In this document: positions 22,140-30,272 of the stretch, piece by piece
How positions within the stretch are numbered: the first letter of the stretch is position 1
How the letters are laid out: each line of letters starts with the position of its first letter
Translations under genes and position numbers: made by a program
Assembly: GCF_003014535.1 (NCBI RefSeq)
Contig: NZ_PYGD01000004.1
Span: forward strand, 62,001-126,000
Length of the DNA stretch: 64,000 nucleotides
Direction: 5' to 3'
Source: Taibaiella chishuiensis
GTDB lineage: Bacteria > Bacteroidota > Bacteroidia > Chitinophagales > Chitinophagaceae
The notes under the pieces: model-generated
Seen by the model: only the letters and a program-made list of their open reading frames with translations
Databases searched by the model: none
What the model was told of the DNA's origin: nothing

Positions 22140-22580
22140 ATGATCCAGCTTGCTTTCCCTGCACATGATTTCAGGATAAAAGAGAGCGACACAGGCCGTG
22201 TTATCTTCGATTTTGTAAGACGCAGGTATGTGGCGCTTACGCCCGAGGAATGGGTAAGACAGAACCTGCTGGTCTATCTCTGCGAAGTAATGCAATACCC
22301 CAAAGGACTGATTTCTGTAGAGAAGGAACTTAAGGTCAATAACCTCAAAAGAAGGTACGATATCGTGGTATACAACTCCGATCATATGCCCTGGATGCTG
22401 ATCGAATGTAAAGAGCCGCAGGTACCCATTACAGATCAGACCTTACAGCAATTGCTGGCGTATTACCAGCGGTTGCAATGCCCGTATTGGATGCTGAGTA
22501 ATGGCCGGCAGAACTTCTGCGCCGGCATCAGCGGGGGCGCCGTAAACTGGTTAACGGCCCTGCCCGTTCACAATAGTTGA
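22140..22580 (+). CDS. HsdR N-terminal-like (PD-(D/E)XK fold) protein
   Basis: A 146-residue protein resembling the stand-alone type I restriction enzyme R N-terminal domain (HSDR_N_2) common in Bacteroidota. A probable catalytic core is visible: RRYDIVVYNSDHMPWMLIE followed by CKEP, giving the Asp...Glu-x-Lys pattern of PD-(D/E)XK nucleases. WVRQNLLVYLCEVMQYPKGL precedes it. No HsdM, HsdS or motor subunit lies nearby, so it is not part of an evident restriction system. Its last 30 bp overlap tail-to-tail with the S41 protease gene. Confidence 0.82.
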   Translation: MIQLAFPAHDFRIKESDTGRVIFDFVRRRYVALTPEEWVRQNLLVYLCEVMQYPKGLISVEKELKVNNLKRRYDIVVYNSDHMPWMLIECKEPQVPITDQTLQQLLAYYQRLQCPYWMLSNGRQNFCAGISGGAVNWLTALPVHNS

Positions 22581-24209
22581 GTATTCTTCGCTGCCCAGGA
22601 TGTGCAGGGCACGTTGTACCACCTGGTCTTCCTTATTGATTTGCTGGTAGTACCCGTTGGTACGGAACAACATCCGAGACAGTACCGCTTTCAGGCGGTT
22701 GCTGAGGGAGGCTATTGCCCTTGGGTTACTCCATACATTTTTAACCTGTGCCGGGTAGTCCTTGGCCAGGTTGCTTTTCAGCCGTTGCATCAGTTCGGGC
22801 GTTACCTGGAATGCATTATCGAAGCGGGTAAAATTACCGTACTGGTTCATCTCCCGGCTATGTTGCGAAAAGTATTCGTAAGCCGTATTGAGCAGGGTAG
22901 CGGAACCCAGTATTTCGTATAAGCCGTCAGTAATAAATGCCAGTTCATAGGGCACGTTTACGTCCGGTTTAATACCGCCGCCGCCATACACCACGCGATG
23001 TTTCTGTTCGGTGTAATACTTCATAGTATCGGCTGTGGATAATGTATCCTGGCCGGTAAGCGAACCGTTGCGGAAGCGGTTTATAAAATCATCTTCGTAG
23101 GCATCCTTACCCTTGTTATAAGGGCGCTGGATGCTGCGGCCCGAAGGGGTGTAATAACGGGCAATGGTAAGCCGGAGGGCCGATCCGTCGTCGAGTTCAA
23201 ACTGCTCCTGTACCAGGCCTTTACCAAAGGTGCGCCGGCCGATCACCACACCGCGGTCCCAATCCTGTATGGCGCCGCTCAGGATCTCGCTTGCCGAGGC
23301 CGAACCTTCATCGACCAGTACAGCCAGTCTTCCTTTTTCAAAACGTCCCTTTTGTTCGGCCAGGTATTCCTCTTTTGCCGAAGCCCTGCCCTGGGTATAA
23401 ACCAATAGTTTGTTGCCGCCGATCAGTTCGTCGGCAATAGCCGTAGCTGCATCCAGGTAGCCGCCGGGGTTCTGGCGTAGGTCCAGGATCATCTGCTTCA
23501 TACCCTTGCCCTGCAGGTTGTCGAGCGCATGCGAAAACTCGCGGTAGGTAGTCGCACTGAAACGGTTGATGCGGATATATCCTGTGGCTGTATCGATCAT
23601 ATAAGCGGCATCGACACTGTACAATGGAATGACGCCCCGTTTAACCGAAAGATCCAGCAGTTTATTTTCAGAAGTGCGTAACAGGTGCAGGTGTACGGCG
23701 GTGCCTTCGCCGCCTTTAAGCTGGCTCACGATCTTATCGCTGGTAATGCCGTTACCCGCTACCAGGCTGTCGTTTACCCTGATGATCTTATCGCCGGTCA
23801 GTACGCCGGCATCTGCCGAAGGACCGTTTTTGACCACCGAGGTGATCATGATGGTATCGTTAAGGATATAAAATTCGACGCCGATGCCTTTGAAGTTGCC
23901 TTCCAGGTCTTCGGTAACGGCGGCCATTTCGCGGGCCGGGATATAAATAGAGTGGGGGTCGAGATGTTTCAGGATGCCGCTTACGGCGTCTTCATAAAGC
24001 GAGTCGGCGCTTACCGAGTCTACATACTTGGCGCCGATAATGTCGATAATCTCTTCGAGCCTGTCGTTCCGCTCGATCACGGTGCCGATCGAGCGCTTAT
24101 TACCCATGTATTTATTGAGTTGAAAACCAATAAGTACTCCCAATACCAATACAATGAAGAAGAGAAGCGGCGTCCAGATGCTGGATCGCTTCGACGGGTC
24201 AGCAGGCAT
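22551..24209 (-). CDS. S41 family C-terminal processing protease (CtpA-like)
   Basis: A 552-residue periplasmic protease. One N-terminal membrane anchor (WTPLLFFIVLVLGVLIGF) is followed by a PDZ domain (about 100-185, GIGVEFYILNDTIMITSVV) and the catalytic domain. The Ser-Lys dyad is visible: Ser305 in DEGSASASEI and Lys330 in RTFGKGLVQ, 25 residues apart as expected. The C-terminal extension after about 390 is typical of the Bacteroidota subgroup. The enzyme trims or degrades periplasmic proteins from their C-termini. A second, longer S41 protease lies at 42.9-45.1 kb. Confidence 0.94.
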   Translation of the reverse strand: MPADPSKRSSIWTPLLFFIVLVLGVLIGFQLNKYMGNKRSIGTVIERNDRLEEIIDIIGAKYVDSVSADSLYEDAVSGILKHLDPHSIYIPAREMAAVTEDLEGNFKGIGVEFYILNDTIMITSVVKNGPSADAGVLTGDKIIRVNDSLVAGNGITSDKIVSQLKGGEGTAVHLHLLRTSENKLLDLSVKRGVIPLYSVDAAYMIDTATGYIRINRFSATTYREFSHALDNLQGKGMKQMILDLRQNPGGYLDAATAIADELIGGNKLLVYTQGRASAKEEYLAEQKGRFEKGRLAVLVDEGSASASEILSGAIQDWDRGVVIGRRTFGKGLVQEQFELDDGSALRLTIARYYTPSGRSIQRPYNKGKDAYEDDFINRFRNGSLTGQDTLSTADTMKYYTEQKHRVVYGGGGIKPDVNVPYELAFITDGLYEILGSATLLNTAYEYFSQHSREMNQYGNFTRFDNAFQVTPELMQRLKSNLAKDYPAQVKNVWSNPRAIASLSNRLKAVLSRMLFRTNGYYQQINKEDQVVQRALHILGSEEYSTIVNGQGR

Positions 24210-24228
24210 AATGCGTTTTAGTAGGTTG

Positions 24229-24236
24229 CAAAATTA
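24229..24236 (-). promoter_or_regulatory. -7 box TAATTTTG for the S41 protease gene
   Basis: Exact TAnnTTTG match on the minus strand, 19 bp before the start, giving a short leader. Confidence 0.55.
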
Positions 24237-24490
24237 AGATTTAATTAGGTTAATATTTAAAGCATCTGATAAATAAAATCTACAATGCAATAAAAATTCA
24301 CGCACGGGCTATCCCCAGGTTTTTATGGGTACTATTTTTTTAATGTTAAAATTTAAGCATGCATGGTTTAAATAATTTTTAATATTACGATAAGTTCTAT
24401 TTTTATATGGGCATTTTGCCTGCGCCGAACAAACCTTCCAGGGCGCTGCACCCGCTAAAGACAGGAAGGGTAATCCCTTAAAATCTGTTT

Positions 24491-24688
24491 ATGAAAAAGA
24501 AAAACATCAGGCTGCAGAAAAGGCTGTTTCTCGACAAGGAAACCATTGCAGCGCTTAACAAGCAACAACAGGAAGGCGTAGCCGGTGGAGCTACCATCGG
24601 CCGTATCTGCAACTCGGCCGGTTGCCAGACCTATGATCCGCAGGCTACCTGCGAGACCAATCCCAGGCCGGGTTATGTATGCCTCTAA
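24491..24688 (+). CDS. lanthipeptide-type precursor peptide 1
   Basis: A 65-residue peptide. The leader is Lys-rich (MKKKNIRLQKRLFLDKETIA, then ALNKQQQEGVAGG) and ends in a Gly-Gly cleavage site near residue 36. The core starts ATIGRICNSAGCQTYDPQ and carries four Cys with Thr/Ser partners. This architecture matches Bacteroidota GG-leader natural-product precursors (TIGR04149-like), commonly annotated as class I lanthipeptide. Two more such peptides lie 3.3 and 3.8 kb downstream. No dehydratase, cyclase, radical SAM enzyme or peptidase-containing transporter is in the window, so modification is unproven. A shared terminator follows. Confidence 0.8.
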   Translation: MKKKNIRLQKRLFLDKETIAALNKQQQEGVAGGATIGRICNSAGCQTYDPQATCETNPRPGYVCL

Positions 24689-24751
24689 CACCACGGCGCA
24701 TATAACCGGCCTCCACAAACGGAACAAGAAGGAGCTTAACCGATAAAACAG

Positions 24752-24781
24752 AAGCCCCCGCCTGCAGAGGCGGGGGCTTTA
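24752..24781. terminator. bidirectional terminator between precursor 1 and the SPFH gene
   Basis: AAGCCCCCGCCT and AGGCGGGGGCTT form a 12-bp GC-rich stem around GCAG. The convergent genes end on either side. Confidence 0.85.
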
Positions 24782-24800
24782 TCATAGGGAGCAAGTATAC

Positions 24801-25733
24801 TTACCTGTTATCCTGCACGATCTTGGAAGATTGCGAGATCGACATCAGCTCCTTCATGGTGCGCTGCATATTGTCGTTGCTGCCATCAAGGAATATAGTA
24901 TTGCCTTTGCCGTTTTCTGCAAAATGTTTAATAGCGTCGGTCCACATCGAGAACAGGATGAAAGAGGCGTCCAGCTTGGCCTGCTCCATTTCTTTGGCAG
25001 CTTTGGCCATACCATGCGCCACCTCTTCGCGGAAGAGGGCCACACCCTGGCCGCGCAATTGGGCGGCTTGTCTTTCGGCCTCGGCCTGGATCTTAATGGC
25101 ATTACCTTCGGCTTCGGCAGCCTTGGTCTTGGTGATCAGCAGGGCCTGGCCTTCGTTCTCGGCCGCGGCTTTCAGGTTATTGGACGATACCACCTGGGCC
25201 ATAGAGCGCATAATCACTTCGTCGAAAGTAATATCATTGATCTGGAGGTCGATCAGGTGGTAGCCCCATTCTTCCAGCACTTTATCCAGTTGTTCTTTTA
25301 CATGCAGGATAATTTCGCCGCGCAGGCTCAGGATCTCGGCCTGTTTCTTGGTGGCCACAAAGGCACGTACCGAGCCTTCTACAGAGCGTACCAGGGCCTG
25401 CATCAAACTGCGTTCGTCCATAAATTTGAACGCCACGTTCTTGATCGTTTCCGCTTCCTGGTTAAACACCGCGTAGAGCAGCATGGCAGAGAAGTTGACA
25501 TTGGCCTGGTCCTGGGTAATGGCCTGGAACTTGAGCTCGATCGAACGGTTCTGGATGGAGATCCTGCGGAATATTTTTTCTATTAACGGTATCCTGAAAC
25601 TCAGGCCCGGCCTGAGTATGCGCTGGAACTTGCCGAATATGGTAATGACGGCAACAGTGCCTTGCTGTACGGTTACAAAACAAAGAAAGAGTAAGGCTAC
25701 CAGGACGATAGCGACAATGTACATAGGAGACAT
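24801..25733 (-). CDS. SPFH/Band 7 (stomatin-like) membrane protein
   Basis: A 310-residue protein with an N-terminal membrane helix (MYIVAIVLVALLFLCFVTV). A complete SPFH domain follows (VAVITIFGKFQRILRPGLSF, RISIQNRSIELKFQAIT), and an Ala/Glu-rich coiled coil spans about 175-240 (AAENEGQALLITKTKAAEAE, GNAIKIQAEAERQAAQL). These proteins assemble into membrane scaffolds in lipid microdomains. No NfeD-like partner is adjacent. A second Met at residue 4 could be the start. It is convergent with precursor 1, which does not by itself imply a functional link. Confidence 0.92.
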   Translation of the reverse strand: MSPMYIVAIVLVALLFLCFVTVQQGTVAVITIFGKFQRILRPGLSFRIPLIEKIFRRISIQNRSIELKFQAITQDQANVNFSAMLLYAVFNQEAETIKNVAFKFMDERSLMQALVRSVEGSVRAFVATKKQAEILSLRGEIILHVKEQLDKVLEEWGYHLIDLQINDITFDEVIMRSMAQVVSSNNLKAAAENEGQALLITKTKAAEAEGNAIKIQAEAERQAAQLRGQGVALFREEVAHGMAKAAKEMEQAKLDASFILFSMWTDAIKHFAENGKGNTIFLDGSNDNMQRTMKELMSISQSSKIVQDNR

Positions 25734-25881
25734 AGTATAAGGTTTTAATCGGGTGGAAAGATACTGAAATCGGATGTATTAACCTGTAAAAGCCCTTTTG
25801 ATTTATGTCGCCTGCCGGGTAACCGCGTTTTGTCTTCCTGAAAAAAAGAACCAACTTTGCAGGTAATTAGTCCCTCCCTGC

Positions 25882-26394
25882 ATGGCAAAACTTTTACTCG
25901 ATACCGCGGCTGTTGAAGAAGACTTCTTCGAAGATTGCAAGCTGGCGGCGATCGGTTCCGCCTTGCCCGGGTATGGGCTTTGCTGGACGCTCAACCGCTT
26001 GTTTGGCCTGGATTTCCGGCGTACGCCCGAAAACGATATCTGTATCCTGGCGGGCGAAACGCAGCCCGAAACAAAGGGCACCTTATTTGCCGGCACCTTG
26101 TTTGCACCGGTAAAAGAAGAAGAGGAGGAAATAAAGCGGAAATTCTACTTTCCTATCTATTGTCATAAGTTCAGCTATTTCGAAGGCTGCATTTTTCTGT
26201 ATAAAAACCAGCGGCAGGGCAAAAGGCTCCTGCCCGAACTGAAGCATGCGGACTATCTCCTGTTGGTGCAGTACGCTTCGTTTGTAGCGCCAGAGAACGA
26301 CTTATTGCCCATGCTGTCGCAGGTAGAGCAGATCAGCTGGAACAGCGAGATCGAGATCGATACCCTGAGGTCGCGGCGCAACCTCATTATCTGA
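25882..26394 (+). CDS. IPExxxVDY-like family protein
   Basis: A 170-residue soluble protein. The pattern LLPELKHADYLLLVQ near residues 117-131 resembles the IPExxxVDY signature of a small Bacteroidota family. The N-terminal half (FFEDCKLAAIGSALPGYGLC, LNRLFGLDFRRTPENDI) and the LFAPVKEEEEEIKRKFYFPI segment fit as well. The signature differs at two positions (Leu for Ile, Ala for Val), so membership is likely but not certain. Molecular function is unknown. Highly conserved icd follows after 138 bp with its own promoter. Confidence 0.65.
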   Translation: MAKLLLDTAAVEEDFFEDCKLAAIGSALPGYGLCWTLNRLFGLDFRRTPENDICILAGETQPETKGTLFAGTLFAPVKEEEEEIKRKFYFPIYCHKFSYFEGCIFLYKNQRQGKRLLPELKHADYLLLVQYASFVAPENDLLPMLSQVEQISWNSEIEIDTLRSRRNLII

Positions 26395-26476
26395 TCTGCG
26401 GGGAGGCCTGCCGGCGGCCAGTTTAACGTTTGTGTCAAAAAATATCCGATCAGTGGGCAAAGCATTGGTTTTTTAC

Positions 26477-26484
26477 TATTTTTG
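26477..26484 (+). promoter_or_regulatory. -7 box TATTTTTG for icd
   Basis: Exact TAnnTTTG match, 48 bp before the icd ATG. Confidence 0.55.
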
Positions 26485-26532
26485 CCCGATTTTCTTATTC
26501 AAATAAAAATTTAAATCAACCCTCATAACAAA

Positions 26533-27768
26533 ATGGCTGAAAAAATTAAAGTTGCCAACCCGGTGGTAGAGCTGGACGGCGATGAAATGACGCGAATTAT
26601 CTGGAAATTCATCAAAGACAAGCTGATCCTGCCTTACGTGGATGTGGACGTTAAATATTTTGACCTGGGTATCGAGCACCGCGACGCTACCGACGACCAG
26701 GTAACGATCGATGCAGCCAATGCAATTAAACAATATGGGGTAGGTATCAAATGCGCTACCATTACGCCCGACGAGCAGCGTGTAGAAGAGTTTAAGCTGA
26801 AACAAATGTGGAAGTCGCCTAACGGCACGATCCGTAATATTCTTGACGGTACCGTTTTCCGCGAGCCGATTGTGATCGAGAACATCCCGCGCCTGGTGCC
26901 TAACTGGACTGCCCCGATCTGTATCGGCCGTCATGCCTTTGGCGACCAGTACCGCGCTACCGATTTCGTAACTAAAGGAAAAGGCAAGCTGACCGTTAAA
27001 TTTGAAGGCGAAGATGGTACCGTACAGGAATTTGAAGTATACAACTTCAAAGGCGATGGCGTAGCCCTGACTATGTACAATACCGACGAAAGCATTATCG
27101 GCTTTGCCCGTTCCTGCTTCAACCAGGCCCTGATGAAAAAATGGCCGCTGTACCTGTCTACCAAAAATACCATCCTGAAAAAATATGATGGCCGCTTTAA
27201 GGATATCTTCCAGGATATCTTCGAAAAAGAATTCAAAGCCGAATTCGAAGCAGCCGGCATTACCTACGAGCACCGCCTGATCGATGATATGGTGGCTTCT
27301 GCCCTGAAATGGAACGGTAACTTTGTATGGGCTTGTAAAAACTACGATGGCGACGTACAGAGCGATACCGTTGCTCAAGGCTTCGGTTCCCTTGGCTTGA
27401 TGACTTCTACCCTGGTTACGCCTGATGGTAAAACCATGGAGGCAGAAGCGGCGCACGGTACCGTAACCCGCCACTACCGCGAGCATCAGAAAGGTAACCC
27501 TACTTCTACTAACCCGATCGCTTCCATCTTTGCCTGGACGCGCGGCCTGGAGTTCAGGGGTAAACTGGACGACAACCAGCCTTTGATCGATTTCGCACAT
27601 GCCCTCGAAGCGGTATGTATCGAAACCGTTGCCAGCGGCAAAATGACCAAAGACCTGGCCGTTTGTATCCACGGTAATAAAGTGAACCACGGTGAGCATT
27701 ACCTGTATACCGAAGAGTTCCTGGATGCACTCGATACCAACCTGAAAGCTAAGCTGGGCCTGAACTAA
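26533..27768 (+). CDS. icd: NADP-dependent isocitrate dehydrogenase (eukaryote-like type)
   Basis: A 411-residue enzyme of the homodimeric class related to animal IDH1/IDH2 rather than the E. coli Icd class. Visible motifs are [20 protein letters not shown] at the N-terminus, [19 protein letters not shown] for isocitrate binding, [20 protein letters not shown] for metal binding, and [16 protein letters not shown] with [20 protein letters not shown] at the nucleotide site. It converts isocitrate to 2-oxoglutarate in the TCA cycle and supplies NADPH. Length and start are typical. It is a single-gene unit with a strong terminator. Confidence 0.97.
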
Positions 27769-27791
27769 TCAGTACCTGTCTTTATGATAAC

Positions 27792-27822
27792 AAAGGGCTG
27801 CCCGGATGTTCCGGGCAGCCCT
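27792..27822 (+). terminator. terminator of icd
   Basis: AAGGGCTGCCCGG and CCGGGCAGCCCTT pair over 13 bp around ATGTT. The following TGTCTTTG tract is only moderately T-rich. Confidence 0.82.
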
Positions 27823-27973
27823 TGTCTTTGTAGCTGATATTGCCTCGTACCGGTGTTTTTATATGCCGGAACTGCGCAATGATATAACGCCAATGCACAA
27901 TGGTGTAACGGAGGTTATGTTTCTTATTTTATATTCATTTCTATTTTAATTTTAAGGTATAAAAATGATGATT

Positions 27974-28213
27974 ATGAAAAAGAAAATCGTAAAACTCCAG
28001 AAATTATCGCTGAACAAATCGGCTATTGCCAGCCTGAACGGGCAGCAACAGGGACAAGCCGTCGGCGGCGCTACGGAACTCGGCGTTACCCAGCCTTGCG
28101 CACTTTGTCGTTACACGGAGAACCCAAGTTGCGTGAACTGTCCCACAGTCTATCTTTGCCCGGCTACGGAGCGTTGTCAGCCAACGGGCCGTACCGTGTG
28201 TTTCATCTGCTAA
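27974..28213 (+). CDS. lanthipeptide-type precursor peptide 2
   Basis: A 79-residue peptide. The leader MKKKIVKLQKLSLNKSAIAS followed by LNGQQQGQAVGG ends in Gly-Gly. The core starts ATELGVTQPCALCRYTEN and contains eight Cys, mostly paired as CxxC or CxxxxC, with several Thr and Ser. The leader half is nearly identical to precursor 3, marking them as paralogues. The frame also has an ATG three codons upstream (27965), but the Lys-rich start at 27974 matches the other two peptides. The same product class as precursor 1 is inferred. No processing enzymes were seen nearby. Confidence 0.8.
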   Translation: MKKKIVKLQKLSLNKSAIASLNGQQQGQAVGGATELGVTQPCALCRYTENPSCVNCPTVYLCPATERCQPTGRTVCFIC

Positions 28214-28526
28214 AGGCAAAGTTATGAGCTCCCTGCCGGCGTTCCGGTAAGGTGAAAAGTACTGTTTGTACCAGGCCTTCATTGGCGCTCCAAATACGGG
28301 CAGCCATGAGGGCCTGGTCGTATGCCTTGCTATGGCCTTCACGCTCTGGCCGTAGGGTAACACTACGACCTCTTCGAGTTCATGGGTCCCGCTACTGCTT
28401 TTTGCGCTTTCACAGGTGCAATTGCGCGGTAGTAAGTGGCAGTGGCTGTAGCCCCACCGCAGTTACTCATTCAGTCTTGGTGCGGAAGTAGATAGTACGG
28501 ATATTCGGGAAGCAAAAAAAATATTT
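28214..28526. other. spacer between precursors 2 and 3
   Basis: 313 bp. The minus strand shows a frame fragment that ends at 28203 and reads EREGHSKAYDQALMAARIWS without a good start codon, overlapped by another open frame. One of these may be a decayed gene. Short inverted repeats occur (GGTCGTA...TACGACC around 28317-28373). No functional gene is supported. The promoter of precursor 3 should lie near its right end but has no clear consensus. Confidence 0.4.
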
Positions 28527-28703
28527 ATGAAAAAGAAAAGAATAACCCTGAAAAAATTATCCCTCGACAAAGCTGCCATTGCCAGCCTGAACGGGCAGCA
28601 GCAGGCAAAGGCATTGGGCGGCGCCAGCCAGCTCGGCGAAAGCAAGCCTCCTTGCGGGCATTGTAATAACTCCCAGCAGGATAGCTGTATTTGCTTTCCT
28701 TAA
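28527..28703 (+). CDS. lanthipeptide-type precursor peptide 3
   Basis: A 58-residue peptide starting MKKKRITLKKLSLDKAAIAS then LNGQQQAKALGG. The core ASQLGESKPPCGHCNNSQ ends SCICFP and has four Cys in two CxxC/CxC-like groups plus several Ser. The leader shares IASLNGQQQ with precursor 2, and both cores begin with a short ASQLGE/ATELGV segment. The start codon lies just after an A-rich tract. A hairpin with a T-tract follows at 28737-28768. No modification enzyme is adjacent. Confidence 0.78.
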   Translation: MKKKRITLKKLSLDKAAIASLNGQQQAKALGGASQLGESKPPCGHCNNSQQDSCICFP

Positions 28704-28736
28704 TGCGGGTATCAAATGCTGGGGTATACCTTACCA

Positions 28737-28768
28737 GGTCGTAGCATTCCGCTACGGCCCTTTTTTTG
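28737..28768 (+). terminator. terminator of precursor 3
   Basis: GGTCGTAGC and GCTACGGCC pair (one mismatch) around ATTCC, followed by TTTTTTTG. Confidence 0.85.
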
Positions 28769-28859
28769 TCCACGATAGCAGACTTAATTGGTTGTAAACA
28801 TTTAGTATAAATAATGTTCCCGGTTTCCTGGCTAATTTCAATTTTGAAAAATAAAGCAT

Positions 28860-30272
28860 ATGAAACAGGCAATGTTTTTACTGATTGTTTTACCATTCTA
28901 TTTATGGTCCTGCTCAAAAGCCGCACCGGATCAGCCCCCTGACAATAGCGGGTATGATCCCGCCCTGCCGGTAACCCATACCATAGTCCAGGTACAGGCC
29001 CTGCCCGCAGGCCAGCAGATTAGCGAAGACATCGTGATATCCGGTATCGTGATCATGGATGACCACAGCGGCAACTATAACCGTAAACTGGTGATCCAGG
29101 ACAGCAGTGGCGGCATCGAAGTACTCGTCGACCAGGGAGAACTTTTTCGCGACTATCCTATAGGGCGGCGGCTGTATATCCGGTGCCGCGGGCTTTTTAC
29201 CGCAGCGCCCGGCCAGAACCCGCAACTGGGTTATACGCCCGACGAGACAGGCATCCTGTCGGGTATACCGGTGGTGCTTGCCGATCAATACCTGGTTAAA
29301 GGCAATTTTGCCGGAACGGTGGCGCCCGATACCCTGAGCATCGACAGGCTGGTTATGCCCGACAGGGCGCGCCGCTACCTCAATACCCTGGTGGTGCTGA
29401 AAGATATACAGTTCTCCGATAGCGAACTGGTGCGGTCTTATGCCCAGCCGGTTATGCTGGCTTCGGCTACCAACCGTATGCTAGAGGATTGCAATAACGG
29501 CTCGATCAGTTTGCGGAGCAGTGGCTACGCCCGTTTCCAGGCTTTGCCCGTACCGCCCGGCCGTGGTATGCTCACTGCTGTGTATACCCGGTACAATGGC
29601 CTCGCGCAACTGTATATCCGTGATACCGGCGATGTGCATTTTTATGGGCCGCGTTGCGGCATCCCGCCTGCGGCCGAGCTTACCCCCATTGCACAGGTAC
29701 GCGCACTGGCGCCTGCGGTCACCGACTCGATCGATCTGCTGCCGGTATACAAGATCGCCGGTGTGGTGATCTCTGATCGCCTGGGCGGCAATGTGGCGGC
29801 ATCGGGACTCAACCTGCAGGATGGCGGCCAGGGCATTTATCTCCGCTTTAATGGCAACCCTTTTTATTATCTGGGCGACTCGCTGGTCGTCAATATTACC
29901 GGTGGCAAACTGTCGCGTTTCAACGGCCAGCTGCAGGTATCCAATATCCCGCTTACCGCCGTAAACCTGGTTACCGCCGGGCGTACGGCGCCGGTACGCA
30001 CAGCCAGTATTGCTATGATCAGGCAACACTATGCCGAATGGGAGTCTACCCTGGTAAAGGTGCCCGGGGCAAAGGTTACAGCCGGTGGCAACTATTCCGG
30101 TTATAAGACGCTGAGCGATAGTACCGGCACCCTTACGCTATTTACGCTGGCCGGCGCCTTGTTTGCCCCGGCTTTCGTACCGGCGCAGCCTGCGGCCTTT
30201 ACGGGCATACTCGGTAGTTCGGCGCAGGGACCTTTGTTGCAGTTACGCAATAGTAATGATGTTGTTCCCTGA
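28860..30272 (+). CDS. DUF5689 domain lipoprotein
   Basis: A 470-residue exported lipoprotein. The N-terminus MKQAMFLLIVLPFYLWSCSK contains a lipobox (LWSC). Two OB-fold-like DUF5689 units follow: one around 40-260 (VISGIVIMDDHSGNYNRKLV, IQDSSGGIEVLVDQ) and another around 280-465 (YKIAGVVISDRLGGNVAASG, LNLQDGGQGIYLRFNG). In other Bacteroidota the family consists of surface-exposed lipoproteins found near carbohydrate or nucleic-acid utilisation genes, but no function is proven. It lies 157 bp after precursor 3 and past that gene's terminator, so it is probably an independent gene. Confidence 0.82.
   Translation: MKQAMFLLIVLPFYLWSCSKAAPDQPPDNSGYDPALPVTHTIVQVQALPAGQQISEDIVISGIVIMDDHSGNYNRKLVIQDSSGGIEVLVDQGELFRDYPIGRRLYIRCRGLFTAAPGQNPQLGYTPDETGILSGIPVVLADQYLVKGNFAGTVAPDTLSIDRLVMPDRARRYLNTLVVLKDIQFSDSELVRSYAQPVMLASATNRMLEDCNNGSISLRSSGYARFQALPVPPGRGMLTAVYTRYNGLAQLYIRDTGDVHFYGPRCGIPPAAELTPIAQVRALAPAVTDSIDLLPVYKIAGVVISDRLGGNVAASGLNLQDGGQGIYLRFNGNPFYYLGDSLVVNITGGKLSRFNGQLQVSNIPLTAVNLVTAGRTAPVRTASIAMIRQHYAEWESTLVKVPGAKVTAGGNYSGYKTLSDSTGTLTLFTLAGALFAPAFVPAQPAAFTGILGSSAQGPLLQLRNSNDVVP

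Follow-up and report, generated by a model that had tools for sequence, protein, structure and literature searches.

The closest described counterparts of the system considered here come from two groups of bacteria. In marine cyanobacteria, prochlorosins and synechococsins are made from large sets of precursors, 83 and 79 of them in the richest strains named in the available part of PMC10783134, where prochlorosin precursors are described as hypervariable. In Bacteroidetes, class I lanthipeptide leaders with an LxLxKx5L motif and a Gly-Gly (GG) site have been described, with the precursors found in clusters, in the available part of PMC7268733. Pinensins from Chitinophaga pinensis and PedA peptides from Pedobacter lusitanus are class I lanthipeptides of the Bacteroidota (available parts of PMC7268733 and PMC12328550). 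Here, we describe three short precursor genes in a 64,000-nt window (the whole stretch of DNA analysed, positions 62001-126000 of contig C4) of the 5.84-Mb genome of Taibaiella chishuiensis, which probably belong to a library of class I lanthipeptide precursors that is dispersed over the genome and processed in trans (probability about 0.77), and a candidate RNA pseudoknot that precedes part of this library.

The arrangement resembles that of the prochlorosins in having tens of scattered single-gene precursors with a common leader, variable cores and few enzymes; numbers and scattering match, as read from the genes alone. However, the prochlorosins are class II products of a ProcM-type LanM with precursors of the Nif11 family, whereas the genes found here are separate class I LanB and LanC genes and the leader is that of NF038153 (NCBIfam, class I lanthipeptide leader), LanM itself not having been searched for. 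A further difference is that the cores of the orthologue pairs tested here are under purifying selection. With the Bacteroidetes class I precursors the Taibaiella system shares a GG-ending leader, a C39 protease/exporter, LanB plus LanC and, by eye, a similar L.L.K spacing, but those were found in clusters (PMC7268733), whereas 11 of the 63 Taibaiella precursors above the NF038153 cut-off have a LanB, LanC or C39 gene within 10 kb. The likeness to pinensins and PedA peptides considered here is one of class and phylum. The peptide class is therefore known, the arrangement is new and the RNA element is a candidate new one. In the literature collection searched, no paper joined Taibaiella with lanthipeptide.

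The three precursors in the window are as follows.

24491-24688, forward strand: precursor 1, 65 aa; leader 24491-24589 with a terminal GG, core 24590-24685 with 4 Cys and 5 Ser/Thr
27974-28213, forward strand: precursor 2, 79 aa; leader up to 28069, core 28070-28210 with 8 Cys and 8 Ser/Thr
28527-28703, forward strand: precursor 3, 58 aa; leader up to 28622, core 28623-28700 with 4 Cys and 4 Ser/Thr

These open reading frames (ORFs) had been proposed in the initial annotation, and were found at these positions both in the sequence and in the ORF list, together with the Lys-rich start, the IAxLN segment (IAALN, IASLN and IASLN), the QQQ motif, the GG site and the 4, 8 and 4 Cys that it had described, all seen by reading. 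The ORF of precursor 2 has other in-frame ATGs from 27965, and 27974 is the start that aligns with the leaders of precursors 1 and 3; the leaders of precursors 2 and 3 are closely alike. Of the two leader models that the initial annotation had named, NF038153 was matched by all three peptides above its cut-off of 22 bits, with scores of 50.8, 40.6 and 37.1 bits for precursors 1, 2 and 3 (E-values of 1.4e-13, 2e-10 and 2.6e-9). TIGR04149, the model for radical SAM target peptides, matched neither the three peptides (E up to 10) nor anything in the genome and was ruled out as the leader family, although the controls gave no match to it either. A Pfam search of the three peptides gave nothing above cut-off. 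By reading, Ser/Thr residues equal or outnumber Cys in all three cores (5 against 4, 8 against 8 and 4 against 4). The peptides therefore show the leader model and core composition of LanA precursors, in a genome that also encodes LanB and LanC. Clustering of precursor and enzyme genes, which is usual but not essential to the definition, is absent from the window.

The description of these genes as three orphans has to be revised, since they are three of 63 precursors above the NF038153 cut-off, found by the genome-wide search for the same leader that had been suggested, and LanB, LanC and C39 genes lie elsewhere in the genome. At E up to 1, 79 matches were obtained, 78 of which were translated, the omitted one sitting in a 3614-aa frame; one of the 63 above cut-off counts only when neighbouring stretches are included. 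The 63 fall into 37 loci, and all 78 into 45, when loci are taken as more than 10 kb apart. No match above cut-off was found in 14 control genomes, so that the scores of the window peptides lie well outside what chance would give.

No modification gene was found in the surroundings, in line with the initial annotation: searches for LanB, LanC and C39 gave nothing in the window with an E of 0.001 or less, and its non-overlapping ORFs of at least 120 aa held no CxxxCxxC motif, the scan by which radical SAM enzymes were judged, radical SAM families as such not having been searched. The genome-wide enzyme search that it had recommended located three LanB genes, six LanC genes and a C39 exporter outside the window, the nearest LanC about 165 kb from precursor 3 on the same contig. 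The LanB genes are listed here.

C1:1005.6 kb: LanB1
C1:1018.2 kb: LanB2
C7:238 kb: divergent LanB

The region C1:994-1028 kb holds two LanB and three LanC genes, a C39 ATP-binding cassette (ABC) transporter, an HlyD-type adaptor and an MvdC/MvdD-like ATP-grasp pair. There is one clear C39 exporter, at C1:1000.4 kb, plus a VKOR-type protein with a weak C39 match. The LanB proteins bear both Pfam domains, and LanB2 matches NisB structures. The LanC paired with LanB2 matches the LanC-like structure 8byk and NisC, and contains WCYG and CHG segments, which we take to be the zinc-ligand pattern. Two arrangements of another kind were noticed in the sampled loci (L numbers) of this genome. At L027:4092-7190 (C4:254-257 kb), two precursors precede a ThiF-like gene and a LanC gene, and LanB is lacking. 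At L022:3515-5915, the MvdC/MvdD-like pair directly adjoins LanB2, placing two pathways for ribosomally synthesised and post-translationally modified peptides (RiPPs) side by side, and a microviridin-like precursor with three K[YV]PSD repeats, a GG leader and no Cys lies at L022:5652-5915.

The link between precursor and enzymes is closest for precursor 1. When LanB relatives were sought with an alignment query (a single-protein query of named genomes had found none), 11 Chitinophaga loci (L144-L154) were obtained, all with the gene order LanC, LanB, C39. Nine of them hold, 2.3-6.5 kb upstream of LanB, a precursor that can be aligned with precursor 1 over both leader and core, at 54-64% identity and with C.TYDP..TCE..PRP...C invariant. 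With the LanBs of all eleven loci LanB2 shares 50-57% identity (best segment), and LanB1 shares 37-39% with the three of them compared. LanB1 is also 57 and 56% identical to the LanB of two of the three further same-genus genomes compared with that of T. chishuiensis (G000), which are labelled G001, G101 and G147; those two are G001 and G101. The C39 exporter shares 84% identity with its G001 and G101 counterparts and 78% with the one in Chitinophaga niastensis. The clustering of precursor 1 homologues with related enzymes in Chitinophaga makes the LanB2/LanC pair (C1:1017-1022 kb) the most likely partner for precursor 1. The Chitinophaga clusters resemble the Taibaiella system in these precursor 1 homologues, in the pseudoknot described below and in the related LanB and C39, but their precursors are no more than a few kb away from the enzymes, and in L146 and L147 form arrays.

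The initial annotation had taken the absence of homologous precursors in related genomes as grounds for rejection; G001 and G101 carry many. NF038153 matches at E up to 0.01 numbered 71 in G000, 60 in G001, 98 in G101 and none in G147. LanC genes number four each in G001 and G101, and none was found in G147. Precursors, LanB and LanC therefore occur together in three members of the genus, while G147 is without precursors and LanC (LanB was not searched there). In a survey of 147 genomes of the family, 11 had an NF038153 match, with at most 7 per genome outside the genus, and LanB was found in 21 of the 147 (G147 being outside this set); in 395 genomes of the phylum, nine had a match. The best 49 and best 19 candidates per genome, respectively, were scored in these surveys, so that large counts are lower bounds. 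Among the genomes sampled, an expansion this large over many loci was seen only in the genus. A clustered counterpart of the dispersed library was noticed in another member of the class (G347:C1:2257066-2260358), with at least 19 leader matches, many of them equal-scoring, within 3.3 kb.

Comparison of upstream sequences pointed to a structured element before precursor 1.

24420-24473, forward strand: H-type pseudoknot element, within what is presumably the 5' leader of precursor 1
24423-24426 with 24442-24445, forward strand: pseudoknot stem P1, CGCC/GGCG
24434-24439 with 24464-24469, forward strand: pseudoknot stem P2, CCTTCC/GGAAGG

A subset of the precursors has a conserved upstream segment able to fold in this way: P1 is usually YGCY/RGCR, a loop GAACAA follows, P2 has 4-7 pairs, the next loop is AAGACA, and the element ends 16-31 nt before the start codon. 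The set comprised 28 sequences, 25 from a pairing-aware search of 183 upstream regions and three added by hand, and was selected partly on P1/P2 pairing. The element of precursor 1 matches the resulting paired model at E 2.1e-7, but is among its training sequences. In the alignment of the 28, 99.6% of the cells were paired; double-change cells numbered 28 (8.1 in shuffles), and slid controls reached no more than 61.2% pairing. These values are biased by the selection on pairing. A sequence-only model applied to 28 further loci, mostly picked by the paired model, gave 37 matches (one row, L266:16563, is a training sequence) with 98.6% pairing, nine double changes against 0.9 in shuffles, and slid controls of at most 62.9%. 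In 79 loci selected solely for LanB, the sequence-only model matched 23 times, and P1 was paired in every match; its outer pair was C-G in 12 and A-T in 11, and an inner pair had changed once from G-C to A-T. P2 was CCCC/GGGG in 21 of these 23, with one compensated row and a Mucilaginibacter row that breaks two pairs; being near-invariant, it is little informed by this set. The automatic test on the trimmed LanB-chosen alignment was uninformative, with one double change and a covariation score equalled in 33 of 500 shuffles. Support for P1 is therefore independent of pairing selection, while the covariation in P2 rests on the Taibaiella sets.

No Rfam 15 family matched near its gathering score at the element, in the 24200-28800 part of the window, six Taibaiella loci and part of one Chitinophaga locus, and a term search of the literature collection for such an element gave one lanthipeptide review, which names neither pseudoknots nor riboswitches. 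The pseudoknot is therefore a candidate new RNA element, apparently uncatalogued.

A genome search with the paired model, in which the best 150 candidates per genome were scored, found 45 matches at E up to 0.01, all of them in G000, G001 and G101; the best candidate in G147 had an E of 0.318. All but one of the 45 precede a short ORF by 10-26 nt, with a GG site in 43 cases and a GA-type site in one, whereas at random positions in the same loci a GG-type ORF lies behind in 1.8% and any such ORF in 5.2%. Eighteen matches were new relative to the training list, and 17 of these precede such an ORF, as does one of three weaker matches that were checked (E 0.028, 0.029 and 0.163). The exception among the new matches, L258:3185-3225, has behind it a leader-like start (MKKAK...) whose leader is interrupted by an in-frame stop, perhaps a broken precursor; in its G101 counterpart (L266, element at 2723) the frame is open. 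The 79 LanB loci gave 28 element matches at E up to 1, and among the best 24 (E up to 0.019), 22 precede a GG/GA-type ORF, 21 in Chitinophaga and one in Mucilaginibacter. A strong match in Chitinophaga sp. GbtcB8 (L149:8125-8180, 44.3 bits) had no short ORF found behind it, and L176 is likewise without one. In the L146 array, the element lies in the spacer immediately past the stop codon of the preceding precursor, which argues for an RNA acting on each cistron and against a promoter element.

The element is not confined to lanthipeptides, as it is also carried by graspetide-type operons. Seven element-bearing peptides in six operons have another leader (e.g. MKLESLNAPAF...VLGG), and the operons continue with a protein with a signal-like N-terminus and an ATP-grasp enzyme; five of the six enzymes pass the cut-off of the grasp-with-spasm model TIGR04192, and the sixth scores 222.6 against 230. 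The graspetide-type precursors with the pseudoknot are listed here.

L254:2195-2477
L257:2886-3184
L261:3091-3398
L261:3718-3775
L263:2832-3153
L267:2973-3304
L253:6870-7150

By eye, a box like ACAGGAAGAC...AACCTG.ATAAA, possibly an extra stem, is common further upstream to the graspetide-type and some other elements (L254, L255, L257, L263, L267, L253 and L021:16499). The pseudoknot would, with odds slightly better than even, be a functional RNA regulator of RiPP precursors.

Other upstream signals were also found. Inverted repeats with arms of at least 6 were seen upstream of 21 of 79, 10 of 44 and 18 of 60 precursors (block shuffles 10.2, 4.3 and 7.25); they explain part of the set only, and a simple palindrome was rejected as the element common to all precursors. 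A -7 promoter box, TAnnTTTG, was present up to 75 nt upstream of the pseudoknot in 16 of 66 elements, against 2.3 in shuffles; all 16 were among the 44 Taibaiella elements and none among the 22 of other genera, and it was rejected as a general companion of the pseudoknot. In G001 and G101, ACTGCA-N6..8-TGCAGT (at most one mismatch) occurred at 27 sites in 557 kb of sampled loci, 23 of them (11 of 14 and 12 of 13) lying 35-46 nt ahead of a precursor start. Because the loci were picked for their precursors, the DNA sampled is biased, but the fixed spacing is not. Examples of the 19-bp form, ACTGCA-N7-TGCAGT, are at L108:1802-1820, L120:1709-1727 and L126:2011-2029. The G000 loci held one such site, not near a precursor. 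Another palindrome, GGCAT-N0..3-ATGCC, occurred at 12 sites in the G000 loci, four of them (GGCAT-N3-ATGCC) 42-44 nt upstream of a precursor start, and at four sites in G101, none near a precursor. No precursor carried both a pseudoknot (28 listed) and the ACTGCA palindrome (at most two mismatches). In G001 and G101, a candidate regulator lies next to the LanB-C39-HlyD genes, namely a gene with a cyclic-nucleotide-binding domain such as that at L068:16740-17342.

The genes around the three window precursors, with one further feature, are given below.

22551-24209, reverse strand: S41-type peptidase gene (named by recognition), left end of the synteny region; upstream also in G147 and G001, not among the ORFs of the G101 stretch
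24752-24779, forward strand: GC-rich, terminator-like inverted repeat 3' of precursor 1, 12-nt arms, 4-nt loop, no long T run (read by eye)
24801-25733, reverse strand: SPFH-domain gene (named by recognition); precursor 1 lies between it and the peptidase gene
26533-27768, forward strand: icd (named partly by recognition), synteny anchor, 93-94% identical in the three same-genus genomes
28860-30272, forward strand: lipoprotein-like gene, directly after icd in G147, G001 and G101; precursors 2 and 3 intervene only in G000

The order S41 peptidase, SPFH, hypothetical gene, icd, lipoprotein-like gene and ftsY-like gene is found in G000 and G147. The G001 region has the peptidase, an extra inserted gene and then the hypothetical gene onward, the SPFH gene being masked by an antisense frame in the ORF list, and the G101 stretch runs from SPFH to ftsY with two genes beyond SPFH. 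In G000, one precursor lies in the gap between the peptidase and SPFH genes, which has none in the stretches of the relatives, and two more separate icd from the lipoprotein-like gene. The gap from the lipoprotein-like gene to ftsY holds three precursors in G001 and five in G101; the G147 region has none. The three of G001 pair reciprocally with three of the five of G101, and none pairs with a window peptide. The placement around icd and SPFH, regarded as odd in the initial annotation, is therefore the norm here, as precursors come and go in intergenic gaps and G001 and G101 hold theirs in a neighbouring one.

The alternative that the peptides are secreted, GG-cleaved and disulfide-rich, sharing a lanthipeptide-like leader but remaining undehydrated, has to be weighed against core composition. 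The precursor library compared for this comprised 183 sequences, 79 from G000 (obtained with a permissive home-made leader profile, and including the Cys-less microviridin-like precursor at L022:5652-5915, which was kept in the composition, pair, flank, repeat and dN/dS counts), 44 from G001 and 60 from G101, the last two from sampled stretches only, with 60 and 98 full matches at E up to 0.01. The cores have a median length of 43 aa with 13.0% Cys, 12.2% Thr and 7.1% Ser, compared with 0.8%, 5.4% and 5.5% in window ORFs of more than 250 aa; Cys makes up 0.1% of the library leaders. Ser+Thr equal or exceed Cys in 76 of 79, 42 of 44 and 57 of 60 cores. The very high Cys content would suit disulfides, as would Pro being the commonest residue after Cys, and the correlation of Cys with Ser+Thr, rejected as proof of lanthionines, vanishes at fixed core length (partial r of 0.15, -0.06 and 0.04, not significant), so that this test favours lanthionine no more than disulfide. 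This and several other observations count against the dispersed lanthipeptide library: Ser is only slightly enriched; there are six LanC genes for three LanB, one of them divergent, so that the enzymology may be more complex; and precursors 2 and 3 have no close core relative among the sequences compared (the reciprocal best hit of precursor 2, in G001, is 35% identical over the core), no pseudoknot or palindrome seen upstream and no nameable partner, the assignment of LanB to precursor being drawn from homology. However, Thr is about doubled in the cores, the leaders of all three window peptides are those of NF038153, precursors and both enzymes go together in three members of the genus while G147 has neither precursors nor LanC, and the core of precursor 1 is kept near LanC-LanB-C39 in Chitinophaga. 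A distinct class of secreted Cys-rich peptides, as the initial annotation had also considered, is therefore the weaker reading and unlikely, while its suggestion of substrates for enzymes encoded elsewhere is supported by NF038153, the LanB, LanC and C39 genes of the genome and the Chitinophaga clusters.

More improbable still is a view of the dispersed copies as selfish or decaying relics that a mobile process has spread and whose products have little function. Such an origin would fit the gain and loss of precursors near icd, the lack of enzymes nearby, the in-frame leader stop of L258 and a copy truncated to 29 aa (L035:9790-9879). However, among 27 reciprocal best precursor pairs between G001 and G101, the 24 with at least 90 bits gave a pooled ratio of nonsynonymous to synonymous substitution (dN/dS) of 0.141 for leaders and 0.088 for cores (0.130 when Cys codons are left out), which indicates strong purifying selection that keeps the cores of these pairs, even though the choice by reciprocal best hits and score biases towards conserved pairs and values of dS near or above 1 make the estimates rough. 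The upstream elements are conserved as well. An origin by mobile elements was rejected when 400-nt flanks were compared all against all in G000: matches were neighbour overlaps, tandem duplicates and, between distant loci, short stretches, of 22 to 76 nt in or near the leaders and upstream elements and, as the longest, one of 102 nt (78%) shared by two C1-cluster loci. Least probable is modification by another RiPP enzyme, such as the MvdC/MvdD-like pair or grasp-with-spasm ligases. The pair adjoins LanB2, and graspetide-type precursors share the pseudoknot, but that pair has its own adjacent microviridin-like precursor, and the element-sharing graspetide-type precursors have a leader different from the NF038153 leader of the window peptides.

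For the dispersed class I library, we propose that a small number of LanB dehydratases and LanC cyclases would recognise the shared leader in trans, dehydrate Ser/Thr and close (methyl)lanthionine rings, and that the C39 ABC transporter would then cut after GG and export the product. Intergenic gaps would acquire and lose precursor genes one at a time or a few together. The pseudoknot just before the start codon may act on the RNA, through translation, processing or stability. There is also a little more than an even chance that the pseudoknot represents a new cis-regulatory RNA class for RiPP precursors of Chitinophagaceae, both lanthipeptides and graspetides, in which control of each cistron could keep the scattered library in step with distant enzymes, with the palindromic operator forming a second regulon in two species.

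If the in-trans reading is true, Taibaiella would hold a class I counterpart of the prochlorosins, in which dozens of ring topologies could be produced by a few tolerant LanB and LanC enzymes, and cluster-based genome mining would miss most of the precursors in such genomes. The pseudoknot provides a sequence handle for RiPP precursors that lack nearby enzymes, which has already led to non-lanthipeptide precursors, and makes the co-regulation of scattered precursors with their remote modification machinery a testable question.

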